Assembly: GCF_013201705.1 (NCBI RefSeq)
Contig: NZ_CP053837.1
Location: 992,001-1,056,000 of the forward strand
DNA length: 64,000 nt
Source: Aliarcobacter faecis
GTDB lineage: Bacteria; Campylobacterota; Campylobacteria; Campylobacterales; Arcobacteraceae
Direction of reading: 5' to 3'
Position 1 is the stretch's first letter. Every line of letters starts with the position of its first letter. Made by a program: the position numbers and the translations under genes. Shown here in pieces: positions 5,570 through 34,937 of the stretch. The notes under the pieces were generated by a model. That model did no database searches. It was not told the origin of the DNA and saw only the letters and a list, made by a program, of their open reading frames with translations.

Positions 5570-6432
5570 TTTAAGCTCTTAGCATTAAAAAGTTTTAGTG
5601 ATTCACTTTTTAGATTTTTTATTTCATTTGAGTAACCATTTTTTGTAAAAATAACTACAATATCATAAGAGATATTTTCACTTTTTAAATCTTCTAAAAA
5701 TTTATTTAATTCACTTTTTTTGATTTTATTGTCACTATATTTACAAAAGCCAACTATGGTTTTTCCTGATACTGTTTTTGCCACTATTGGAATTTGAATT
5801 TTTTCATCCCAATATTGTCCATGCTGTTTTATCTCTTCACCAAGAAAGCTATTTTTTACAAAAGATAAAGCTAACTCTTCAAATATAAAATCACTAAAAT
5901 CAGATTCTCTATTCTGAAATTTTACTCTAAACTCTTCATAATTTCCATCTTTTATTCCTTTATAAATAGGAGAGACAAAAGCAAACCAAAATCTAAGAAA
6001 AGGATTTATAAATAGTAGTTTTTTCGCTACTTTTGAATCATTTCTTCTTCCTAGTAAAAAGTGTTCAGAGGAATCTATATCAATAATCTCTTTTTCATAT
6101 AAAAAATCAACACATTTCATTCCTTCTTCAAAGCTAATAAAAGCTCTTTTAAAAGCATTTGTCGTTTTTCTATCACCTAAGGCAATCCCAGAAAGAACGG
6201 CATGATGTACAGAGTAACCACCCGTTAGATAGTTTATTTCACTTTTTAGATATGAGTAATTGTTTAAAATATGTATCTCTATTAGCTCTAAAATAGGTTT
6301 TGTTATATCTACTTTTATATCAAGCCCACCAAATACTGTAAAGTATTTTATTGCTATTTGCATATCACTTATACTATTTTCTTTGCAAAAAATCTGAAAT
6401 AGCTCTTTTATTGATTTATCTAATATAATCAT
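5554..6432 (-). CDS. DUF234-domain protein without the ATPase half
   Basis: The protein has 292 residues. The C-terminal half carries the pattern typical of DUF234, the domain usually found behind an archaeal-type ATPase: NPFLRFWFAFVSP followed by a variable segment and a predicted nuclease-like beta-alpha fold around GQYWDEKIQIPIVAKT. The N-terminal half is helical, and I see no Walker A motif, so the usual AAA+ module is absent. Stand-alone versions are widespread in Campylobacterota. The function is unknown; a nuclease or DNA-associated role is speculation from the fold. It lies 56 nt downstream of rpoD on the same strand, separated by an inverted repeat. The start at 6432 gives the full conserved N-terminus. 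Confidence 0.65.
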   Translation of the reverse strand: MIILDKSIKELFQIFCKENSISDMQIAIKYFTVFGGLDIKVDITKPILELIEIHILNNYSYLKSEINYLTGGYSVHHAVLSGIALGDRKTTNAFKRAFISFEEGMKCVDFLYEKEIIDIDSSEHFLLGRRNDSKVAKKLLFINPFLRFWFAFVSPIYKGIKDGNYEEFRVKFQNRESDFSDFIFEELALSFVKNSFLGEEIKQHGQYWDEKIQIPIVAKTVSGKTIVGFCKYSDNKIKKSELNKFLEDLKSENISYDIVVIFTKNGYSNEIKNLKSESLKLFNAKSLKALIS

Positions 6433-14720: not shown

Positions 14721-16076
14721 ATGACTCTAAAAGAAGCACTAAAACTAAATAGTGATGATATACAAAAATTAAGAGATGATTTAAATACAAAGATTAAAAA
14801 TAGCAATATTGGTGCTTATATTGAGCAATTAGAAAATAAAGATGTATATAGTTGTGGGAATGGTATTCCAATAGCTATTAAAAATAATATAAATGTAAAA
14901 AACTGGGAGCTTACTTGTTCTAGTAATATTTTAAAAGGTTATATAGCTCCTTTTAATGCAACTGTTATTGAAAAATTACAAAATGCAGGATTAAGTCCAT
15001 TTGGACTTACAAATATGGATGAGTTTGCCATGGGAAGTAGTACAGAATCTTCTTGTCATGGAAAAACATTAAATCCAGTTGATAACTCAAGAATTCCAGG
15101 TGGAAGTAGTGGAGGAAGTGCTGCTGCTGTTGCTGCAGGTTTAGCAATTGCTGCATTAGGAACTGATACAGGAGGAAGTATTAGACAACCTGCTGCCTAT
15201 TGTGGTGTTGTTGGAATGAAACCAACTTATGGAAGAGTAAGTAGATATGGAATAGCTGCTTATTCATCTTCTCTTGATCAATGTGGACCAATTACACAAA
15301 ATGTTGAAGATGCTGCAATTTTATACGATATTTTAGCTGGATATGATGAAAAAGATTCTACAAGTGCAAATATAGATTATACAAAAGTTACTCCAAATTT
15401 AACTAGTGATAGAAAATTTACAATAGCCGTAATTGATAATTTTGTTGAACAAGCTTCACAAGATATAAAAGATGCTTTGAATAATAGTATTAAACTTTTA
15501 GAAGAGCAAGGACATAAAATTATTCATACAAATATGATTGATTCAAGTAAAATAATTTCAACATATTATATTATTTCAGCAGCTGAAGCTAGTGCGAACT
15601 TAGCTAGATATGATGGAGTAAGATATGGTTTTAGAGCTTCAAATAGTGGACTAAAGGATATGTATATTGATACAAAAACTCAAGGGTTTGGATATGAAGT
15701 TAAAAAAAGAATTATGTTAGGATCATTTGTACTAAGTTCTGGTTATTATGATGCTTATTACATAAAAGCTCAAAAAGTAAGATCTATTATAAAAGCTGAA
15801 TTTGATAAAATTTTTGAAACTGCCGATTTGATTTTATCACCAGTTGCTCCAACAACAGCTCCTAAATTTGGTTCATATACAAGTGCTTTAGAGATGTATT
15901 TATCAGATCTATATACAATTTCTATAAATCTTGCAGGACTTCCAGCTATTAGTTTACCAGTTGCAAAAGATAGTTCAGGACTTCCAATAGGACTTCAATT
16001 AATAGCAAATAGTTTTGAAGAACAAACTTTATTTGATGGTGCTTTATCTATGGAAAAAGCTGTAAAATATATATAA
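14721..16076 (+). CDS. gatA: Glutamyl-tRNA(Gln)/aspartyl-tRNA(Asn) amidotransferase subunit A
   Basis: The 451-residue protein is an amidase-signature family member. It releases ammonia from glutamine for GatB to convert misacylated Glu-tRNA(Gln) or Asp-tRNA(Asn). The catalytic Ser-cisSer-Lys elements are visible: Lys in GIPIAIKNNINV, and serines in PGGSSGGSAAAVAAGLA and GTDTGGSIRQPAAYCG. GatB and GatC are not neighbours. The start follows AGGAGAACCTAATTT. guaB begins 17 nt after the stop and is likely co-transcribed. Confidence 0.95.
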   Translation: MTLKEALKLNSDDIQKLRDDLNTKIKNSNIGAYIEQLENKDVYSCGNGIPIAIKNNINVKNWELTCSSNILKGYIAPFNATVIEKLQNAGLSPFGLTNMDEFAMGSSTESSCHGKTLNPVDNSRIPGGSSGGSAAAVAAGLAIAALGTDTGGSIRQPAAYCGVVGMKPTYGRVSRYGIAAYSSSLDQCGPITQNVEDAAILYDILAGYDEKDSTSANIDYTKVTPNLTSDRKFTIAVIDNFVEQASQDIKDALNNSIKLLEEQGHKIIHTNMIDSSKIISTYYIISAAEASANLARYDGVRYGFRASNSGLKDMYIDTKTQGFGYEVKKRIMLGSFVLSSGYYDAYYIKAQKVRSIIKAEFDKIFETADLILSPVAPTTAPKFGSYTSALEMYLSDLYTISINLAGLPAISLPVAKDSSGLPIGLQLIANSFEEQTLFDGALSMEKAVKYI

Positions 16077-16084
16077 TTTATTAG

Positions 16085-17539
<1,455 letters not shown>

Positions 17540-17541
17540 TT

Positions 17542-17575
17542 AAATAAAAAACGGTATTTACGCCGTTTTTTATTT
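17542..17575 (+). terminator. Terminator after guaB
   Basis: A 13-bp stem AAATAAAAAACGG (17542-17554) pairs with CCGTTTTTTATTT (17563-17575). The T tract is part of the stem, so it could work in either direction. Confidence 0.85.
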
Positions 17576-17576
17576 A

Positions 17577-17604
17577 ATCTGATTTTTTTCTTTTAAAATC
17601 AGAT
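17577..17604. terminator. Second hairpin behind guaB
   Basis: ATCTGATTTT (17577-17586) pairs with AAAATCAGAT (17595-17604) around an 8-nt T-rich loop. It immediately follows the guaB terminator and has no T run of its own. It may be a back-up terminator or an mRNA 3' stem. Confidence 0.45.
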
Positions 17605-17723
17605 ATTACCAATTATTTTAATTATATTTTTTATCTTATAAAATAAATTGTTATATTTAAGAAAGTATTATAAGTTTTTTGAATAAAATAAATATTATTT
17701 TTTTAAAAAGTAGGATGGAGAAT

Positions 17724-20255
17724 ATGACTATTGGGAGAAAATTTACTTTAACAAATGTTATTGTTACGATTGTTGTTTTGATTATTGGTTTTTTTATATT
17801 AAATAAATATAAAAATGATTTAAGAGATGAAATTTATAATGATGTTATTTTAAATTTAAATTCCCTTAGTGAACTTAGAATTGGTTCAAAACTAGATGTT
17901 GGTATATCAAATGCAACTTCAATAGCAAATGATTCAAATATTCAAGAGGCATTAAGCTCTAATAATAGAGATTTAGCTATAAAAACTCTTAGTAGTTTAA
18001 GTTCTACAATGAAAGAACAAACTCCATTTAAAAATATTCAAATTCATATTCATACATTAAATAATCACTCTTTCTTGAGATCATGGAAACCAACAGATTT
18101 TGGAGATGATTTAAGCTCTTTTAGAACAAGTGTTGTAAAAGTAAATAGTGAAAAAAAAGCTATAAATGGTTTTGAAATAGGAAATGATGGTTTAAGTTTA
18201 AGAGCAGTTGTACCTATATTTAAAGATAAAAATCATGTTGGATCATTAGAATTTATGCAAGGAATAAACTCTGTTGCTATTGATTTTGATAAAGAGAAAA
18301 GAGGATTCTTACTTTTAATGGATACAAGCTTGGCAACAGCTAAAATAAAAGAAGAAGATAAATTAAATAACTATTTAATCTCTCAAAAATTTAGAAATGA
18401 CAATTTTATGGCAGATGTTAAAACTATAGATTTTTCTAAACTCTTAAAAGATAAATTTTTGATCTCTCAGAATTATTTTTATACATATATAAATGTTACA
18501 GATTTTAGTGGTAAAAAACTTGGTATCGCACTTGTTGCTGAACCAATATCAAATGTTGAACAATCTATTTCACAAGCATCAAATATTATCTATGCTGCTT
18601 TAATTATTTTAACTTTAGCTTTACTTTTTACTATGATAAATACTCTATTTAGTATGAAAAGAGAGATATTAAATCCTATTTTAAATCTTAAAAATACAAT
18701 AGATGATATCACAAAAAGATCATCAGAAGCTACAAGAATAAAAGTTACATCAAAAGATGAGATAGGAGATGTTGTAACAAGTTTCAATAACTATTTAGAT
18801 TCAATAGAAAAAGGTTTAATTCAAGATCAAATAGTAATAGATGAAGCAAAAGATATTATTGAAAAAGTGAATGCAGGACTATTTAATGATAGTATAAAAG
18901 GAAAAGCAAACTCAAAAAGAGTTGCTTCTTTAGTTGTTGAAATAAATAGTATGATTGCAAAAACTCAAAGTAATTTAACTTTAGTTAGCGATTCTTTAAT
19001 TGCTCTTTCTCATGCAAAGTTTGATTATGAAGTTCCTGTTATCTCAAATGTAACAGGGCTTATAGCTTCTCTTTTAAGTGGAATTAAAGTTACTCAATCA
19101 AGTATAAATGAGATTATGTGTTTAATTGAGAAATCAACAATAGATTTAACAAGAAGCTCAAAAGAGTTAGCAATAGCTTCACGAAGTTTAAGTGAATCTT
19201 CAAATATTCAAGCAGCTAGTCTTGAAGAGACAGCAGCAGCAATAGAAGAGATTAGTTCAACTATTTCAAGAAGTAGTCAAAATGCTTCAAATATGGCTAA
19301 GTATGCTCTAAATGTTACTGAATCTACAAATCAAGGAATAGAATTAGCTAGACAAACAGCAATCTCTATGGATGAAATAAATAAAGAGGTTATACAAATA
19401 AATGAAGCAATTTCTATAATTGATAATATTGCATTCCAAACAAATATTTTATCACTTAATGCAGCAGTTGAAGCAGCAACAGCAGGAGAAGCTGGAAAAG
19501 GATTTGCGGTTGTAGCACAAGAGGTTAGAAATTTAGCAACAAGAAGTGCAGATGCTGCAAATGAGATTAAAAAAATAGTTGAAATGGCAACACTAAAAGC
19601 TAAAAATGGGAAAACAATAACATCAAATATGATTGAAGGTTTCAATGAATTAAAAGAGAATATTGATACTACAATTAAACTAATAGAAGATGTGGCAACA
19701 GCAAGTAAAGAGCAACAACAGGCTATGAGTCAAATAAATGATACAGTAAATAGTCTTGATCAAGCAACACAAAAAAATGCAGTTTTAGCTACAACTATAA
19801 ATGATATGGCAACTAAAACTTCACAATTAGCAGTTAATTTAGATGAGACAATTCATCAAACAAGCTTTGATAAAGAGGCACATAAAAGAATTTGTGATGG
19901 AAGTATGATTATTGAGATAAATAAATTAAAATCAGATCATATAAATTTCAAAAACTATAATTTTGCTGCTTGTAAAGATGGGGCTACTTGTACAGTTACT
20001 AGTTCAAAAGAGTGTAATTTAGGAAAATGGATTATTTCAAATTCAAATAAAGATTTTGCAAAAACTAAAGAGTGGGAAGAGTTAGTAACATCTCATGATT
20101 TAGTACATAAATTGGTTCAAGATACAATAAGTTTATATTCAAACTCAAAACCAAATAGTGAAATCTTCTCTGTTACAAATGAGATAGAAAAAAATACTGA
20201 TATTGTATTTACAATGTTAAATAAAATAAGAGAGATAAACTGCAGAAACTTATAA
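17724..20255 (+). CDS. Methyl-accepting chemotaxis protein with Cache sensor and CZB domain
   Basis: I place the start at the ATG at 17724, behind GGATGGAG; upstream TTG and ATG codons lack a site. The 843 residues show a membrane helix at ~10-33 and a periplasmic domain with [16 protein letters not shown] and [17 protein letters not shown], like double-Cache type 3 sensors. A second helix lies at ~290-310, then HAMP. The cytoplasmic signalling hairpin is [20 protein letters not shown]. At the C-terminus a CZB zinc-binding module has His in DHINF, Cys in ECNLGKW and the SHDLVH histidines. CZB domains sense zinc or oxidants such as hypochlorous acid in Helicobacter TlpD-like receptors. The periplasmic ligand is unknown. 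Confidence 0.93.
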
Positions 20256-30292: not shown

Positions 30293-30663
30293 GTTTAAAA
30301 TTAGAGTATCACCAAAATATTAATGGCAAGATTGTAAAAAAAGAGTTAGAGTTTTCTAAAGATTTACTAAAAGATAAATATAGTTTAAACTCTCTTTTTG
30401 TAACTATGGTTGATGGGCAATCTATGGAACCAGATATTTTACATGGCTCTTTAGTAGTTGCTGATTTAAGTCAAAAAGATTTTTTGGCTGATGCTATATT
30501 TTTGATTTATAAAGATAATAATATGTGGATAAAAAAGGCAAAAATTATAGAAAATAAGAACTATTTTGTCTCTATAAATCCAAGCTATTCTCATCTTAAA
30601 TATAAACTTGAAGATTGTAGAGTTATAGCAAAAGTTCTTTTAACTTTTAAAACTTCAAATTAA
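30289..30663 (+). CDS. S24-family (LexA/UmuD-like) peptidase without a DNA-binding domain
   Basis: The 124-residue protein is a lone S24 fold with MVDGQSMEPDILHGSLVVAD, where Ser45 is the expected nucleophile. IFLIYKDNNMWIKKAKI contains the Lys82/83 general base. The residues before the fold are too few for a repressor helix-turn-helix, and UmuD-like cleavage context is not obvious. It is coupled by a 4-nt overlap to the kinase gene, which is unusual for this family and suggests it works with or on the two-component system. A signal-peptidase-like role is less likely because there is no membrane segment. Confidence 0.8.
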   Translation: MSLKLEYHQNINGKIVKKELEFSKDLLKDKYSLNSLFVTMVDGQSMEPDILHGSLVVADLSQKDFLADAIFLIYKDNNMWIKKAKIIENKNYFVSINPSYSHLKYKLEDCRVIAKVLLTFKTSN

Positions 30664-30798
30664 TATTTTTAATAAATTATAAAAAAGAGCTCAAACTTTA
30701 ATATCTTTATAAATTATCTTATACTAATATTTTTAGTTATTTAATTTTCTAATTTGAAATATTAAATATATAGATAATACTAAAATAAAGAGCTTTCC

Positions 30799-33700
30799 AT
30801 GAATAACTTTCCAATAGACTTAATAAATAAAAACATAAATAAAGAAGTTCAAGAGATAAAAGGAAGGTTAAAACTTTTAAACTATAAAAGTAATGATTTA
30901 TATGGAAATACAGATGGGAATTATTCAATATATAATTTAGAAGGGAAAAGTGGAGTAAATAAAGTATATGAATATGAGATAACCTTTATAAGTAATGAAA
31001 GAATAGAAGTAGAAGATATAGTAGATACAGATGTAGAGATAGTTTTAGAGGATTTAGTAAATTTAAAATCTTGTAAAACAATCTTTGGAAAGATTTATAA
31101 AGCTAGTGAAGATAGTATAGTATCAAATAAATATATGTATAAAATAGAAGTAGTACATCCAATATACTATTTGGGATTAAATAATAAATATGAGATATAT
31201 CATAGTCTAAGTGCAACAGATATTATAAATAAAATAGTAACAAGATATAGAGCCTTATTAAATATTTCATTAGAGATAAGAGTAGATAATATAAAATATC
31301 CAATAAAAGATTATACAACCCAATATAATCAAAGTGATTTAGAGTTTATCTTAATGCTTTGTGAAGAAGAGGGATACTCTTTAATATTTAAAGAAGATGA
31401 TAATAGTAGCTTTAAAATAGTATTGTGTGAATTAAATGATTATGTAGAGAAAATAGATAGTAAGATATTGTGTACATATAATCATAAAATAGAGTTTAAA
31501 GCAAGTAAACATATAGAAGATTACTATGATAAGAATAATCCAAGCCAAGAGTATAAAATAGAGAAAACAAAGGTAGTAACTAGTAGTAAGATAAAAGATA
31601 ATGCAAGTAGTAAACAATTAAGAAATGATATAGAAAAAGAGAGCTTTAGAGATAAACTAAACTTGTTAAATGAAAGCTTGTATGAAGATTTAAATAGATA
31701 CACAAATATAGATACAAATAAAGAGTATAGTCAATCAAATATAATAGAAGCAGTTTCAAATGAATTAATAGTAAAAGATAGTTTAAATGCCTTAATAGTA
31801 AGTGAAAAAGAGAATAAAGAAGAAGATGTAATAATAATAGAAGTAAACTATAAAGCATACTTTCCAAATGCCTTAGAAGAGTATTCAAAACTAAATGATA
31901 TAAAAGATATAAACTCAAATATGCAATATAGTGTAGAGTTTAAAGCAATCCCAAAAGATATAATATATAAACCCAAAGTTACAATAAAAAAACCAAAGAT
32001 ATATGGAGTACAAACAGCAATAGTAACATCACAAGATGTAAATAACTCACCAATAAACCAAAATCAAAATAGTATAGATGTAGATGAAGAAGGAAGAGTA
32101 AGAGTACTGTTTCATTTTGAAAGAAATAAAACAACCTCTTGTTACTTAAGAGTATCAAATCTATCTAGTGGAAATAATTATGGCTCACAATTTATTCCAA
32201 GAGTAAATAGTGAAGTAATAGTAAGCTTTGTAAATGGTAACCCAGATTGCCCAATAATAATAGGAACTTTGTATAATGGTGAGAATAAAATACCTTACCC
32301 ACTTCCAGCTAATAAAACAAAAAGTTATATAAGAACATATACAACTCCTCAATATGAAAATGATGAAGGATATAATGAAATACTCTTTGATGATATTCAA
32401 GGAAATGAAAAACTAAATATTCAAGCTCAAAAAGATATGAATACTCTAATACTAAATGATGAAACAAAAATAGTTAAACATAATCAAAGTAATCTAATAG
32501 AGAATGATAAAAAAGAAGATGTAAATAATAACTCAAACTTAAATGTAAAATCAGACTATACAATAAATGTAAATAAAAACCTAACACAAAGTGTAGAAGA
32601 AGAGAAAATAACAACTGTAAATAAAGATTATAATATTTATGCTAATGAAGATTTAAATATAAGAGTAAAAAACACAATAAAACAACTAATAGAAAAGGAT
32701 TTTATACAAAAAGTAAAAGGTAATAAAATAGAACATGTAGAAAAAGATGTAAAACTAAAATACCTTCAAAATCTCTTTAAACAAATAGATAAAGATTTTA
32801 GAATTGATGTAAAAGAGAACTTTCACACTAAAGCAAATACAATTAAAATAGAAGCCCAAACTATAGAGTTAATTTCAGATACAGAAGTAAACCTAAAAGG
32901 TGCTAATAATAATCTAATAGTAAACCCAAATGGTATTTTTATGAATGCTCCTTTGGTAAATACAAACTCTATTTACTTTGGTGCTTTTGCTAATGAAGTT
33001 GAAAAAGTAGATATGGATAATAACACAGCAAATATGCAAAGTAATGACCCTGATAGTTACTCAAATAACTCTACAATTAAAGAGAATACAGTAGGAATAG
33101 TATTTTTTAGACCAAAAGAAAATTATATAGGTGAATATGGTTTTGATTGGTTAAGACAAAATGAAACTTCAAGTATTTTTGAAAGAGATTATGAAAAAAT
33201 ATTGGAAGATAAAGAAGGAATAAATAAAGCTGACCAATATAAAAAAATGAAAGAAGATTATAATAATGAAATTATAAACTTAGATAGTGGGAAATCTTAT
33301 GAGTATTATATTCCAAAGATGACACTCTACCCAAAAACTCCAGCAGATTTACAGATATATTGTAATAACTATGAAGAAGTAGAGTTTGAATCAACAAACC
33401 CTAACTTAATAGTAAAAAAGAATAGTAATCAAACTATATCTTTTGGTACAAAAGGGGAGATAAGTAGTGATGCATATATAGTAGCAAAACGAAATGGAAA
33501 AACAGTAGGGAAAGTACAGCTTTTAGCAAATAGTAAAGCTAATAGATATGAAGTTGATATTATATTTGTAGGATTAAAAACTTTTTTAAATGGAGAAAAA
33601 GAGATAGATGGAAACTATTTAAAAAAATTAAATATAGAAGATGAGATAAAAAGACATTTAGGACAAGCCTATATAAAAGCAAATATTACTATATTAGAAA

Positions 33701-34146
33701 ACTCTTTTACTATTAATAATGATAAAGAGCTTGAAGATTATACTTTTACTAGCAATAAAAGATATTTTCAAATTCTTCCCGACCCAAATGATTATATCTT
33801 ACCAAGATTTGATAAAGCCTACCCACAATATAAAAATCATATAAAGATATTTTTTACAAAAGAAGAAGCTAAACTTTTACATAATGAATATTATGGATTA
33901 GCAGATGGAATTGGAGTTAAAAGTGCAACAATATTTGGGAAAAGAGGGAGTGATAGAAGAGTAAGTCATGAATTAATGCATGCTTTAGGATTACATCACA
34001 CTTTTAGTGAAGAAAATAAATACTATTTTAAAAAATATTTAACACTAAATATAATGGATTATTTTAATGCTACACCTAAAAACTTCTCTTGGCACTATCA
34101 ATGGAGAACTATGCAAAATAATTCATCAGTAAGGAAAGAGAGATGA
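30799..34146 (+). CDS. Type VI secretion VgrG spike with C-terminal metzincin-type protease
   Basis: The 1115-residue protein starts with the gp27-like hub of VgrG (~30-400). It continues with the gp5 OB fold (~420-520: VDEEGRVRVLFHF, RVSNLSSGNNYGSQFIPRVNSEV) and a beta-helical needle with repeated short Asn/Lys-rich strands to ~735. After that comes a ~380-residue extension not found in structural VgrGs. It includes an Ig-like segment (~840-930) and a zinc protease domain with HELMHALGLHH (H1057, E1058, H1061, H1067) and the Met-turn NIMDY (M1086), the metzincin signature. I infer an evolved VgrG delivering a protease effector to rival cells. Isoleucine codons are strikingly ATA-rich. No other type VI genes are in the window. 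The next gene overlaps by 4 nt. Confidence 0.9.
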   Translation: MNNFPIDLINKNINKEVQEIKGRLKLLNYKSNDLYGNTDGNYSIYNLEGKSGVNKVYEYEITFISNERIEVEDIVDTDVEIVLEDLVNLKSCKTIFGKIYKASEDSIVSNKYMYKIEVVHPIYYLGLNNKYEIYHSLSATDIINKIVTRYRALLNISLEIRVDNIKYPIKDYTTQYNQSDLEFILMLCEEEGYSLIFKEDDNSSFKIVLCELNDYVEKIDSKILCTYNHKIEFKASKHIEDYYDKNNPSQEYKIEKTKVVTSSKIKDNASSKQLRNDIEKESFRDKLNLLNESLYEDLNRYTNIDTNKEYSQSNIIEAVSNELIVKDSLNALIVSEKENKEEDVIIIEVNYKAYFPNALEEYSKLNDIKDINSNMQYSVEFKAIPKDIIYKPKVTIKKPKIYGVQTAIVTSQDVNNSPINQNQNSIDVDEEGRVRVLFHFERNKTTSCYLRVSNLSSGNNYGSQFIPRVNSEVIVSFVNGNPDCPIIIGTLYNGENKIPYPLPANKTKSYIRTYTTPQYENDEGYNEILFDDIQGNEKLNIQAQKDMNTLILNDETKIVKHNQSNLIENDKKEDVNNNSNLNVKSDYTINVNKNLTQSVEEEKITTVNKDYNIYANEDLNIRVKNTIKQLIEKDFIQKVKGNKIEHVEKDVKLKYLQNLFKQIDKDFRIDVKENFHTKANTIKIEAQTIELISDTEVNLKGANNNLIVNPNGIFMNAPLVNTNSIYFGAFANEVEKVDMDNNTANMQSNDPDSYSNNSTIKENTVGIVFFRPKENYIGEYGFDWLRQNETSSIFERDYEKILEDKEGINKADQYKKMKEDYNNEIINLDSGKSYEYYIPKMTLYPKTPADLQIYCNNYEEVEFESTNPNLIVKKNSNQTISFGTKGEISSDAYIVAKRNGKTVGKVQLLANSKANRYEVDIIFVGLKTFLNGEKEIDGNYLKKLNIEDEIKRHLGQAYIKANITILENSFTINNDKELEDYTFTSNKRYFQILPDPNDYILPRFDKAYPQYKNHIKIFFTKEEAKLLHNEYYGLADGIGVKSATIFGKRGSDRRVSHELMHALGLHHTFSEENKYYFKKYLTLNIMDYFNATPKNFSWHYQWRTMQNNSSVRKER

Positions 34147-34937
34147 TAAAACTATTAATAAGTCTAAGCTTACTTTTTACTATAAGCTTTGCAGATAATT
34201 TATATAAAGAGATAAAAGGAGAAAAGATGTCTGAAGTATTTAATATTAAAGAGTTTAAAGAGAAAAGTCCAAATGGAGAAGATTACTTTTTTACAGATAA
34301 AGATGGATTTAAAATAGAGTGGAGTCAATATCGACATGAAAATGAGTATGCCCAAAGGAGAACTTATCCTAAACCCTCATTTTTATCTGAATATAAAGAG
34401 TATGATGAAAATGGAAAAATAAAACGTTATCAGCTTTGGGCAAGAGGGTATTTTATAAAAGAACTCCATTTTGATAAAGAGGGAAATATAGTAAAAACAA
34501 TAAATGCAGATGATGATTATAAAATCCAATTAGGTGAAGTATTAGATATATTTAAAAAAGAGTTTCCAAATATAGATTTACATAGGAAATATTGGAAAGA
34601 TAAAAAAGGAACATATATAAAAAGAAAAAAAATAGATAGACTTGAAGATATAGCTGATGGTTTATCTGTACGAGAAATTTTTTGGGAAGAACTTGTAAAA
34701 GAGCATAATTTTTATGGAAATGATATAAATAATCTAAAGTTCCCAATGCAAGTTTATGTAATAAACTTTTTTACAGAAGAAGAGAATGATAAATACCTTT
34801 ATATAAACTCATTTGTAATAGATGCAAATAGTGCAAAACCACTTTTATATGTAAAATCTTATTATATAAGTGATTGGGATTATGTAGAAAAAGATAGCAA
34901 TCCAACTATACTAGATAAATATTATAAAAATAGATAG
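34143..34937 (+). CDS. Secreted protein of unknown function, candidate immunity to the VgrG protease
   Basis: The 264-residue protein has a clear Sec signal peptide (MIKLLISLSLLFTISFA, cut about residue 17-18), so it is periplasmic; no lipobox cysteine follows. The mature part is rich in Tyr, Lys and Asp and contains YKEYDENGKIKRYQLWARGY, a stretch reminiscent of MORN/toxin-antitoxin YwqK-type beta repeats. I recognise no family. It overlaps the vgrG stop by 4 nt (ATGA), the classic arrangement for an effector and its cognate immunity protein. A periplasmic location would match a protease delivered to the periplasm. The immunity role is inference from position and localisation only. Confidence 0.7.
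   Translation: MIKLLISLSLLFTISFADNLYKEIKGEKMSEVFNIKEFKEKSPNGEDYFFTDKDGFKIEWSQYRHENEYAQRRTYPKPSFLSEYKEYDENGKIKRYQLWARGYFIKELHFDKEGNIVKTINADDDYKIQLGEVLDIFKKEFPNIDLHRKYWKDKKGTYIKRKKIDRLEDIADGLSVREIFWEELVKEHNFYGNDINNLKFPMQVYVINFFTEEENDKYLYINSFVIDANSAKPLLYVKSYYISDWDYVEKDSNPTILDKYYKNR

Follow-up and report, generated by a model that had tools for sequence, protein, structure and literature searches.

What is a zinc peptidase doing at the end of a VgrG, the spike protein of the type VI secretion system (T6SS), and what is the role of the small gene that overlaps it? The question is raised by a locus of Aliarcobacter faecis within a 64-kb stretch of DNA (the window, C1:992001-1056000 of a 2.45-Mb genome), in which a vgrG gene for a protein of 1115 amino acids (aa) runs into a gene for an exported-looking protein of 264 aa, hereafter the partner. 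From sequence comparison, and by analogy with a known system, we consider it very probable that the two represent an antibacterial, periplasm-acting T6SS metzincin effector on a specialised VgrG and its exported immunity protein. A sequence-only reading of this DNA had earlier proposed a VgrG-protease effector with an adjoining candidate immunity gene, and that interpretation is supported by a partner homologue directly downstream in 29 of 34 relatives with the full motif, by the presence of a T6SS and by profile matches to metzincins. What the sequence itself shows is the fusion to VgrG, an intact zinc motif with a Met-turn, T6SS genes elsewhere in the genome, a partner that by eye carries an export signal, and two protein families whose adjacency is conserved. 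The features concerned, in window coordinates, are:

30799..34146, + strand: VgrG with C-terminal metzincin extension, 1115 aa (open reading frame, ORF; TIGR03361, 290 bits; Pfam VgrG domains)
30928..32487, + strand: canonical VgrG core, residues 44-563 (TIGR03361 match)
33097..33540, + strand: conserved region of the effector family preceding the catalytic part, FRP..Y.GEYGFDW, then LTLYP ... NGK.VGK (35-sequence alignment A5)
33541..34143, + strand: metzincin catalytic region, about residues 915-1115, start approximate (alignment A5; PDB profile match)
33967..33999, + strand: zinc motif HELMHALGLHH, with H1057, E1058, H1061 and H1067 (pattern HExxHxxGxxH)
34048..34062, + strand: Met-turn NIMDY, M1086, in the context TLNIMDY (N, M and Y unchanged in all 35 A5 rows)
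34143..34937, + strand: 264-aa candidate immunity protein of the periplasm, cysteine-free and with a signal peptide by eye; its gene shares ATGA with vgrG (ORF; adjacency; homologues downstream of distant relatives)

The VgrG extension and the secretion apparatus

The gp27/gp5-like core and the C-terminal extension that are the hallmark of specialised, or evolved, T6SS VgrGs are both present in the 1115-aa protein: Pfam recognises Phage_GPD, Phage_base_V and Gp5_trimer_C in the core (gp27-like, OB and gp5-trimer), and the extension, of about 375 aa, begins at about residue 740. The two ORFs stand at the positions and sizes first reported (30799-34146, 1115 aa; 34143-34937, 264 aa) and share the 4 nt ATGA at 34143-34146; the zinc motif and the Met-turn likewise lie at the residues claimed for them, HELMHALGLHH starting at 1057 and NIMDY carrying M1086. 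A six-frame search of the window gives a single occurrence of the pattern HExxHxxGxxH. When the 375-aa extension was shuffled, the pattern arose in 2 of 200,000 sequences, neither of which also had the Met-turn; a chance origin of the motif was rejected.

Alignment A5 joins the window protein to the 34 loci with the full motif, described below; its 35 rows were picked for that motif, which makes the H/E/H/G/H positions invariant by construction, yet T316, N318, M320, Y322 and Q335 are invariant although not selected for. The stretch G12 E13 Y14 G15 F16 D17 W18 is near-invariant. Used as a profile against the PDB, A5 gave 101 matches at E<=1 (best E 3.6e-4), and among the 60 listed of these 58 are metzincins by molecule name, the 59th being 3lqb, which we take to be a fish astacin, and the other 1tvi (UPF0054). 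The names among the listed matches include myroilysin, ADAMTS-5, pappalysin, astacin, serralysin, matrix metalloproteinases (MMPs) and adamalysin, all of them metzincins. Pfam points the same way in the 42 relatives scanned, with Reprolysin_4 in 10 (best 1.7e-5), Astacin in 4 and Matrixin in 2. The zinc motif, the Met-turn and the profile likeness to solved metzincins support placing the extension in this group (subclan MA(M)). Like myroilysin/astacin, ADAMTS, pappalysin, serralysin and the MMPs, it has HExxHxxGxxH, a Met-turn and profile matches to them; unlike the window protein, none of the listed PDB metzincins is by name part of a VgrG or TssD, and on its own the window protein hits none of the curated peptidase families.

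A secretion apparatus was also sought in the genome by profiling TssK, IcmF/TssM, VipA, VipB, ClpV and Hcp, and all six were found, as the sequence-only reading needed: the first five lie at about C1:1.754-1.775 Mb, and an Hcp gene at C1:541890 stands apart from this main cluster.

The partner and the distribution of the pair

The partner begins MIKLLISLSLLFTISFA/DN, which we read by eye as a signal peptide. Adjacency and export marks, as for an immunity protein against a periplasmic effector, are seen in all Arcobacteraceae carriers, a signal peptide in the window partner and a lipobox in its two relatives, all by eye. Among 104 genomes of Arcobacteraceae, the extension occurs in three and the partner in the same three and no other, always adjacent and with an effector-partner overlap of 4 bp in 3/3. 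In the other two carriers (G060 and G132), the protease is not on a VgrG: it lies at the end of a stand-alone protein of 587 or 590 aa, and the partner gene that overlaps it by 4 bp encodes what is by eye a lipoprotein. The earlier concern that partner homologues might be widespread without vgrG is thus answered in two ways: within the family the partner occurs only in the three protease carriers; taken strictly, it lacks an adjacent vgrG in two of these three and accompanies non-VgrG carriers in Bacteroidota, yet beside the same protease.

Beyond the family, a single-sequence search of our genome contig collection with the window extension retrieved no relative, and a search with the three-row Arcobacteraceae alignment led to 49 loci. 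These were picked up by the patterns GEYGFDW and LEDK together with similarity to the query, a route that by design over-represents the N-terminal GEYGFDW region. By record title 44 are Bacteroidota, two Arcobacteraceae and one each Thiotrichales, Lysobacteraceae and Gilliamella; the Thiotrichales relative is by eye the tail of a VgrG, cut by the contig end, and those of Lysobacteraceae and Gilliamella stop before the catalytic region. The full motif is present in 34 of the 49, nine have HExxHxxxxxH with the Gly changed (the Met of the Met-turn being kept in seven and replaced by Leu in two), three are degenerate and three end before the region. Setting aside 7 near-duplicates or cut ORFs leaves the 42 that were scanned with Pfam, among which VgrG domains were found in 8, TssD/Hcp in 5 and the PAAR-like DUF4280 in 1; the carriers of the protease are VgrG, TssD/Hcp or a PAAR-like domain, and it also occurs on its own. 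Plasmid searches with the extension, with the vgrG DNA and with the partner gave no match, and 10 pattern matches in viral contigs included no relative.

The partner family was traced in these loci too. When the 917 ORFs of the other 47 loci were searched with a profile built from the three Arcobacteraceae partners, 22 matched at E<1e-3, near-duplicate loci such as L026/L027 and L039/L041 being counted apart. Of these matches, 15 come immediately after the effector gene and the remaining 7 are additional copies within the same loci; every one is on the effector's strand. Iterated twice, the profile found a partner homologue directly downstream in 29 of the 34 full-motif loci. Many partners show a lipobox or a signal peptide by eye; a simple lipobox pattern recovers 14/34 and misses clear ones such as that of L031. 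The partner, which the sequence-only reading could place in no family, does have one: it belongs to a diverse exported family with MORN_2-like repeats, MORN_2 matching 14 of 25 partners. PepSY matched 4 of the 25 at E<=0.5, weakly (best 0.0018), and the best PDB match of the partner-family profile was a PepSY propeptide (E 0.021); ten partners scanned singly, and the window partner, gave no PepSY match. We keep a possible PepSY-like, protease-inhibitor end of the partner as a lead and not as a result. The window partner alone gave one PDB match, guanylate kinase (E 0.023), which we took as chance.

In an even sample of 397 genomes of the phylum, the 25-row partner profile matched 37, full-length in the window genome only; the matches in the other 36 are partial (at most 29.3 bits) and are read as lipoprotein-signal or MORN-like similarity, and could be distant kin. 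The effector profile gave 11 matches in this sample, strong in the window genome and at most 30.1 bits in the other 10; the sample under-counts, the known carriers G060 and G132 not being among its matches.

Several observations concern the make-up of the loci. More than one partner homologue lies downstream of a single effector in L046 (four), L034, L035, L036, L048, L026 and L027, as would be expected for stacked or orphan immunity genes, and a further homologue lies upstream of the VgrG-metzincin gene at L039:3466-4086 and L041:3466-4086. In five relatives of 770-844 aa from metagenome-assembled genomes (MAGs) of Bacteroidales/Bacteroidia (L057, L063, L064, L067 and L070), the partner homologues start without a visible signal peptide; the zinc motif is degenerate in three of these (L063, L067 and L070), and protease decay and loss of partner export may go together there. 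A gene matching DUF4280 (PAAR-like) follows the partner in three of the four Bacteroidota VgrG-metzincin loci tested, while the 99-aa ORF in L029 has no DUF4280 match:

L031:7917-8273: DUF4280 gene after the partner
L040:7782-8123: DUF4280 gene after the partner
L045:8028-8381: DUF4280 gene after the partner

Proposed action, alternatives and known protease effectors

The steps that we infer are secretion, catalysis, periplasmic action, use against bacteria rather than eukaryotes, and neutralisation by direct inhibition. In this model, the T6SS spike VgrG would carry its C-terminal metzincin into a neighbouring Gram-negative cell, where the protease would most likely act in the periplasm on envelope proteins, and the exported product of the overlapping gene would protect the producer and its sister cells, probably by binding and blocking the protease.

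Several points weigh against this model. Neither Pfam nor NCBIfam gives a peptidase match for the extension alone at E<=1, and a PDB search with it found nothing, so that its assignment to the metzincins rests on the motif and the family profile, and the PDB E-values of that profile are modest, 15 of the 60 listed lying below 0.01. The zinc motif is lost in 3/49 relatives. The sheath genes speak for a T6SS link in 26 of the 28 genomes tested (for 28 of the 49 loci), a count that has no base rate for the Bacteroidota T6SSiii beside it. VipB occurs in three, those of the Thiotrichales and of the two Arcobacteraceae; of the 26 genomes next searched for the Bacteroidota TssC, 23 have it. Against the link stand the genomes of L051 and L065, both MAGs, which show neither VipB nor TssC. 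On the partner side, the 29 of 34 come from an iterated profile trained on hits later counted, and the non-iterated profile reaches 13 of the 32 full-motif loci outside it. Even the iterated profile finds no homologue directly downstream in 5/34: L052, L054, L056 and L058 have a different exported-looking protein there, and L042 no clear partner. Moreover, the Bacteroidota loci were found through the effector and cannot show how frequent the partner is without it. In favour of the pairing, effector and partner identities correlate (21 pairs, r 0.82; 18 pairs, r 0.78, without the three Arcobacteraceae; 0/5000 permutations as high in either case), though this fits shared ancestry as well as co-evolution and does not separate the two.

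Other explanations were weighed on the same evidence. Many metzincins are secreted proteases acting on host proteins, and the extension might be an anti-eukaryotic protease, directed at protists or animal hosts; the downstream gene would then encode a chaperone, another effector or some exported protein unconnected with the protease. The genus Aliarcobacter, moreover, has species described as zoonotic pathogens in passages of PMC9235176. We nevertheless consider this explanation unlikely, since a diverse exported partner directly downstream in 29 of the 34 full-motif loci, tandem partner copies in several loci and, among the 104 family genomes, a partner present only together with the protease all fit immunity; a dual role, antibacterial and anti-eukaryotic, would be compatible with these points. 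Still less probable, in our judgement, is that the protease matures or releases a toxin or spike without being itself the toxin, as passages of PMC3482391 propose for PVC-type metallopeptidase domains that would process toxins. The zinc motif begins within the last 129 ORF residues in 34/34 full-motif relatives, which leaves no space for a further C-terminal toxin domain, and the PVC metallopeptidase signature given in those passages, HExxHxxQ-E, differs from a third His with a Met-turn; on both grounds an autoprocessing domain was rejected. It is equally improbable that the island is decaying or silent and its fusion unused. Relics of a vgrG and a partner gene in another island (L009:5865-6404) show that such cassettes do decay; both window genes, however, are open over their full length, and the catalytic motif and the ATGA overlap are kept. 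Antibacterial action with dedicated immunity remains the reading that we prefer.

The closest precedent for this preferred reading is VgrG2b of Pseudomonas aeruginosa, which passages of PMC6899460 describe as a VgrG encoded off the T6SS core clusters, with a periplasmic metallopeptidase domain neutralised by PA0261, a signal-peptide protein encoded beside it; the two are proposed there to found a metallopeptidase effector-immunity family, Tpe-Tpi. The window pair shares with it an evolved VgrG away from the T6SS core, a C-terminal zinc metallopeptidase and a small exported gene adjoining, and its family, like the VgrG2b relatives in those passages, includes VgrG fusions, PAAR fusions and free cargo. 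The claim of a new effector-immunity pair stands in part: the effector-immunity reading is supported, yet the arrangement has in VgrG2b with PA0261 (PMC6899460) a precedent that the sequence-only reading did not name. The peptidases themselves differ. VgrG2b is, in the same passages, a thermolysin-like gluzincin with Glu983 as third ligand, of a class (DUF4157) described in Proteobacteria, whereas the window protein has a third His and a Met-turn; DUF4157 was absent from the Pfam matches of the window protein and of the 42 scanned relatives, and membership of the VgrG2b/DUF4157 (Tpe) family was rejected for the wrong class of zinc ligand and this lack of a match. The inhibitors differ too, PA0261 being compared here by description and not by alignment: its family has partly conserved cysteines, and it needs disulfide formation to function well (PMC6899460, in part), while the window partner lacks cysteines altogether and falls in a MORN_2-like family. 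Thus, the window protein most likely represents another peptidase family than VgrG2b, though one predicted to work like VgrG2b-PA0261.

Two further comparisons are instructive. In Listeria monocytogenes, according to passages of PMC8235301, a phage-derived secreted metzincin, Mtz, is encoded beside a TIMP-like lipoprotein, Tim, its putative inhibitor. The likeness lies in a secreted metzincin next to an exported putative inhibitor (PMC8235301); unlike the window pair, Mtz-Tim is Gram-positive and phage-derived, its inhibitor is TIMP-like and not MORN_2-like, and in the passages cited no T6SS is named and the effects are ascribed to cleavage of Tim by Mtz, not to immunity. Among polymorphic toxins, the zincins Tox-MPTase1-5, HopH1-like and ALF-like have HExxH signatures, the Tox-MPTases typically behind RHS repeats (passages of PMC3482391); they resemble the window protein as zinc peptidases in C-terminal toxin modules, some of them T6SS-linked, and no toxin-metallopeptidase model was among its Pfam matches at E<=1.

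Genome setting, probable transfer and meaning

The vgrG gene of the window is one of five in the genome, 95.2-99.5% alike pairwise in DNA over their common part (blastn), the window copy being 95.2-98.3% identical to the other four. With the main-cluster copy the identity is 98.3% over window positions 30841-33018, and the similarity ends at about residue 740:

30661..33018, + strand: segment common to the genome's other vgrG loci, from 138 bp upstream of the ATG to residue 740 at most (blastn, five own-genome vgrG loci)

In the preferred reading, the VgrG core was copied recently and the extension was attached to it near residue 740. Of ten ORFs scanned around VgrG, nine match housekeeping or regulatory families and one has no match; of the two small ORFs closest by, one matches Peptidase_S24 and the other DsrE, the latter below the cut-off. 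None of the ten is a T6SS gene, and the description of a detached vgrG island fits because the T6SS genes sit elsewhere in the genome. A promoter/terminator scan gave 37 promoter-like sites against 35.3 in shuffles and 1 terminator-like site against 0.9.

Three of the four other vgrG loci are likewise islands, each with an effector-like gene and an exported-looking companion. In the first, a lipase of Tle1 type (Pfam Tle1 domain) is accompanied by what is by eye a lipoprotein. The second couples a protein of 612 aa, lipase-like by eye and unmatched in Pfam, to an exported leucine-rich repeat protein (the repeats by Pfam), and the third a 268-aa protein that by eye resembles GH19 lysozymes, also unmatched in Pfam, to two exported-looking proteins. 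In one island (L009:5865-5955 and 6143-6404), a fragment resembling the 3' end of the window's partner gene (76% over 102 bases) lies beside a vgrG piece (86%), as if a related cassette formerly sat there. A domain of about 90 aa is common to two VgrG C-termini and to effector N-termini, including that of a stand-alone metzincin (eight pieces, pairwise E about 1e-5 to 1e-9), and may serve in docking cargo on the spike; the proteins carrying it are encoded at:

L002:9671-10708
L011:5613-7547
L009:8316-11480
L010:7918-10449
L016:9004-10767

Beside the main T6SS cluster lie two large neighbouring genes, L003:10412-14080 and 15138-18326; in a comparison that used the first 400 residues of the former's product, its residues 148-400 resemble residues 5-257 of the latter's (E 1.5e-160). 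The product of L003:10412-14080 opens with a PAAR-like stretch by eye, and neither of these large proteins matches Pfam at E<=0.01.

As to origin, in the tree the window row clusters with the two other Arcobacteraceae rows (support 97/99) in the midst of Bacteroidota rows, and the Thiotrichales row groups with Sinomicrobium and [Flexibacter] (support 100/99). These placements suggest a transfer between phyla; the tree is midpoint-rooted, with several long branches, and does not fix the direction. Protease and partner have probably passed as a module between bacteria with a T6SSi (Arcobacteraceae and Thiotrichales) and Bacteroidota with a T6SSiii.

In the open-licence literature, judged by titles, abstract openings and selected passages, with subscription papers outside this scope, we found no published metzincin T6SS effector, and the pair seems to represent a new family of effector and immunity protein, though of a known kind and with precedent. 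A broader proposal seems to us evenly balanced between right and wrong: an undescribed, cross-phylum family of T6SS metzincin effectors would have its own family of exported inhibitors (with MORN_2-like repeats and possibly a PepSY-like end), occurring in T6SSi (Arcobacteraceae, Thiotrichales) and T6SSiii Bacteroidota, on VgrG, TssD/Hcp or PAAR-like carriers or as cargo, and killing by periplasmic proteolysis. Protease effectors are a minority of known T6SS toxins, a periplasmic example being the gluzincin VgrG2b. If the proposal is true, metzincins with a dedicated exported inhibitor, found on carriers of both T6SSi and T6SSiii, would be a second solution of separate origin beside VgrG2b, and a bacterial protease-inhibitor pair likely under arms-race selection. 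The family would then offer a tool for finding envelope proteins whose cutting is lethal, and would be a case of effector-immunity exchange across phyla between differently built T6SSs. A set of unassigned exported proteins of Bacteroidota, finally, could be named as probable immunity genes.

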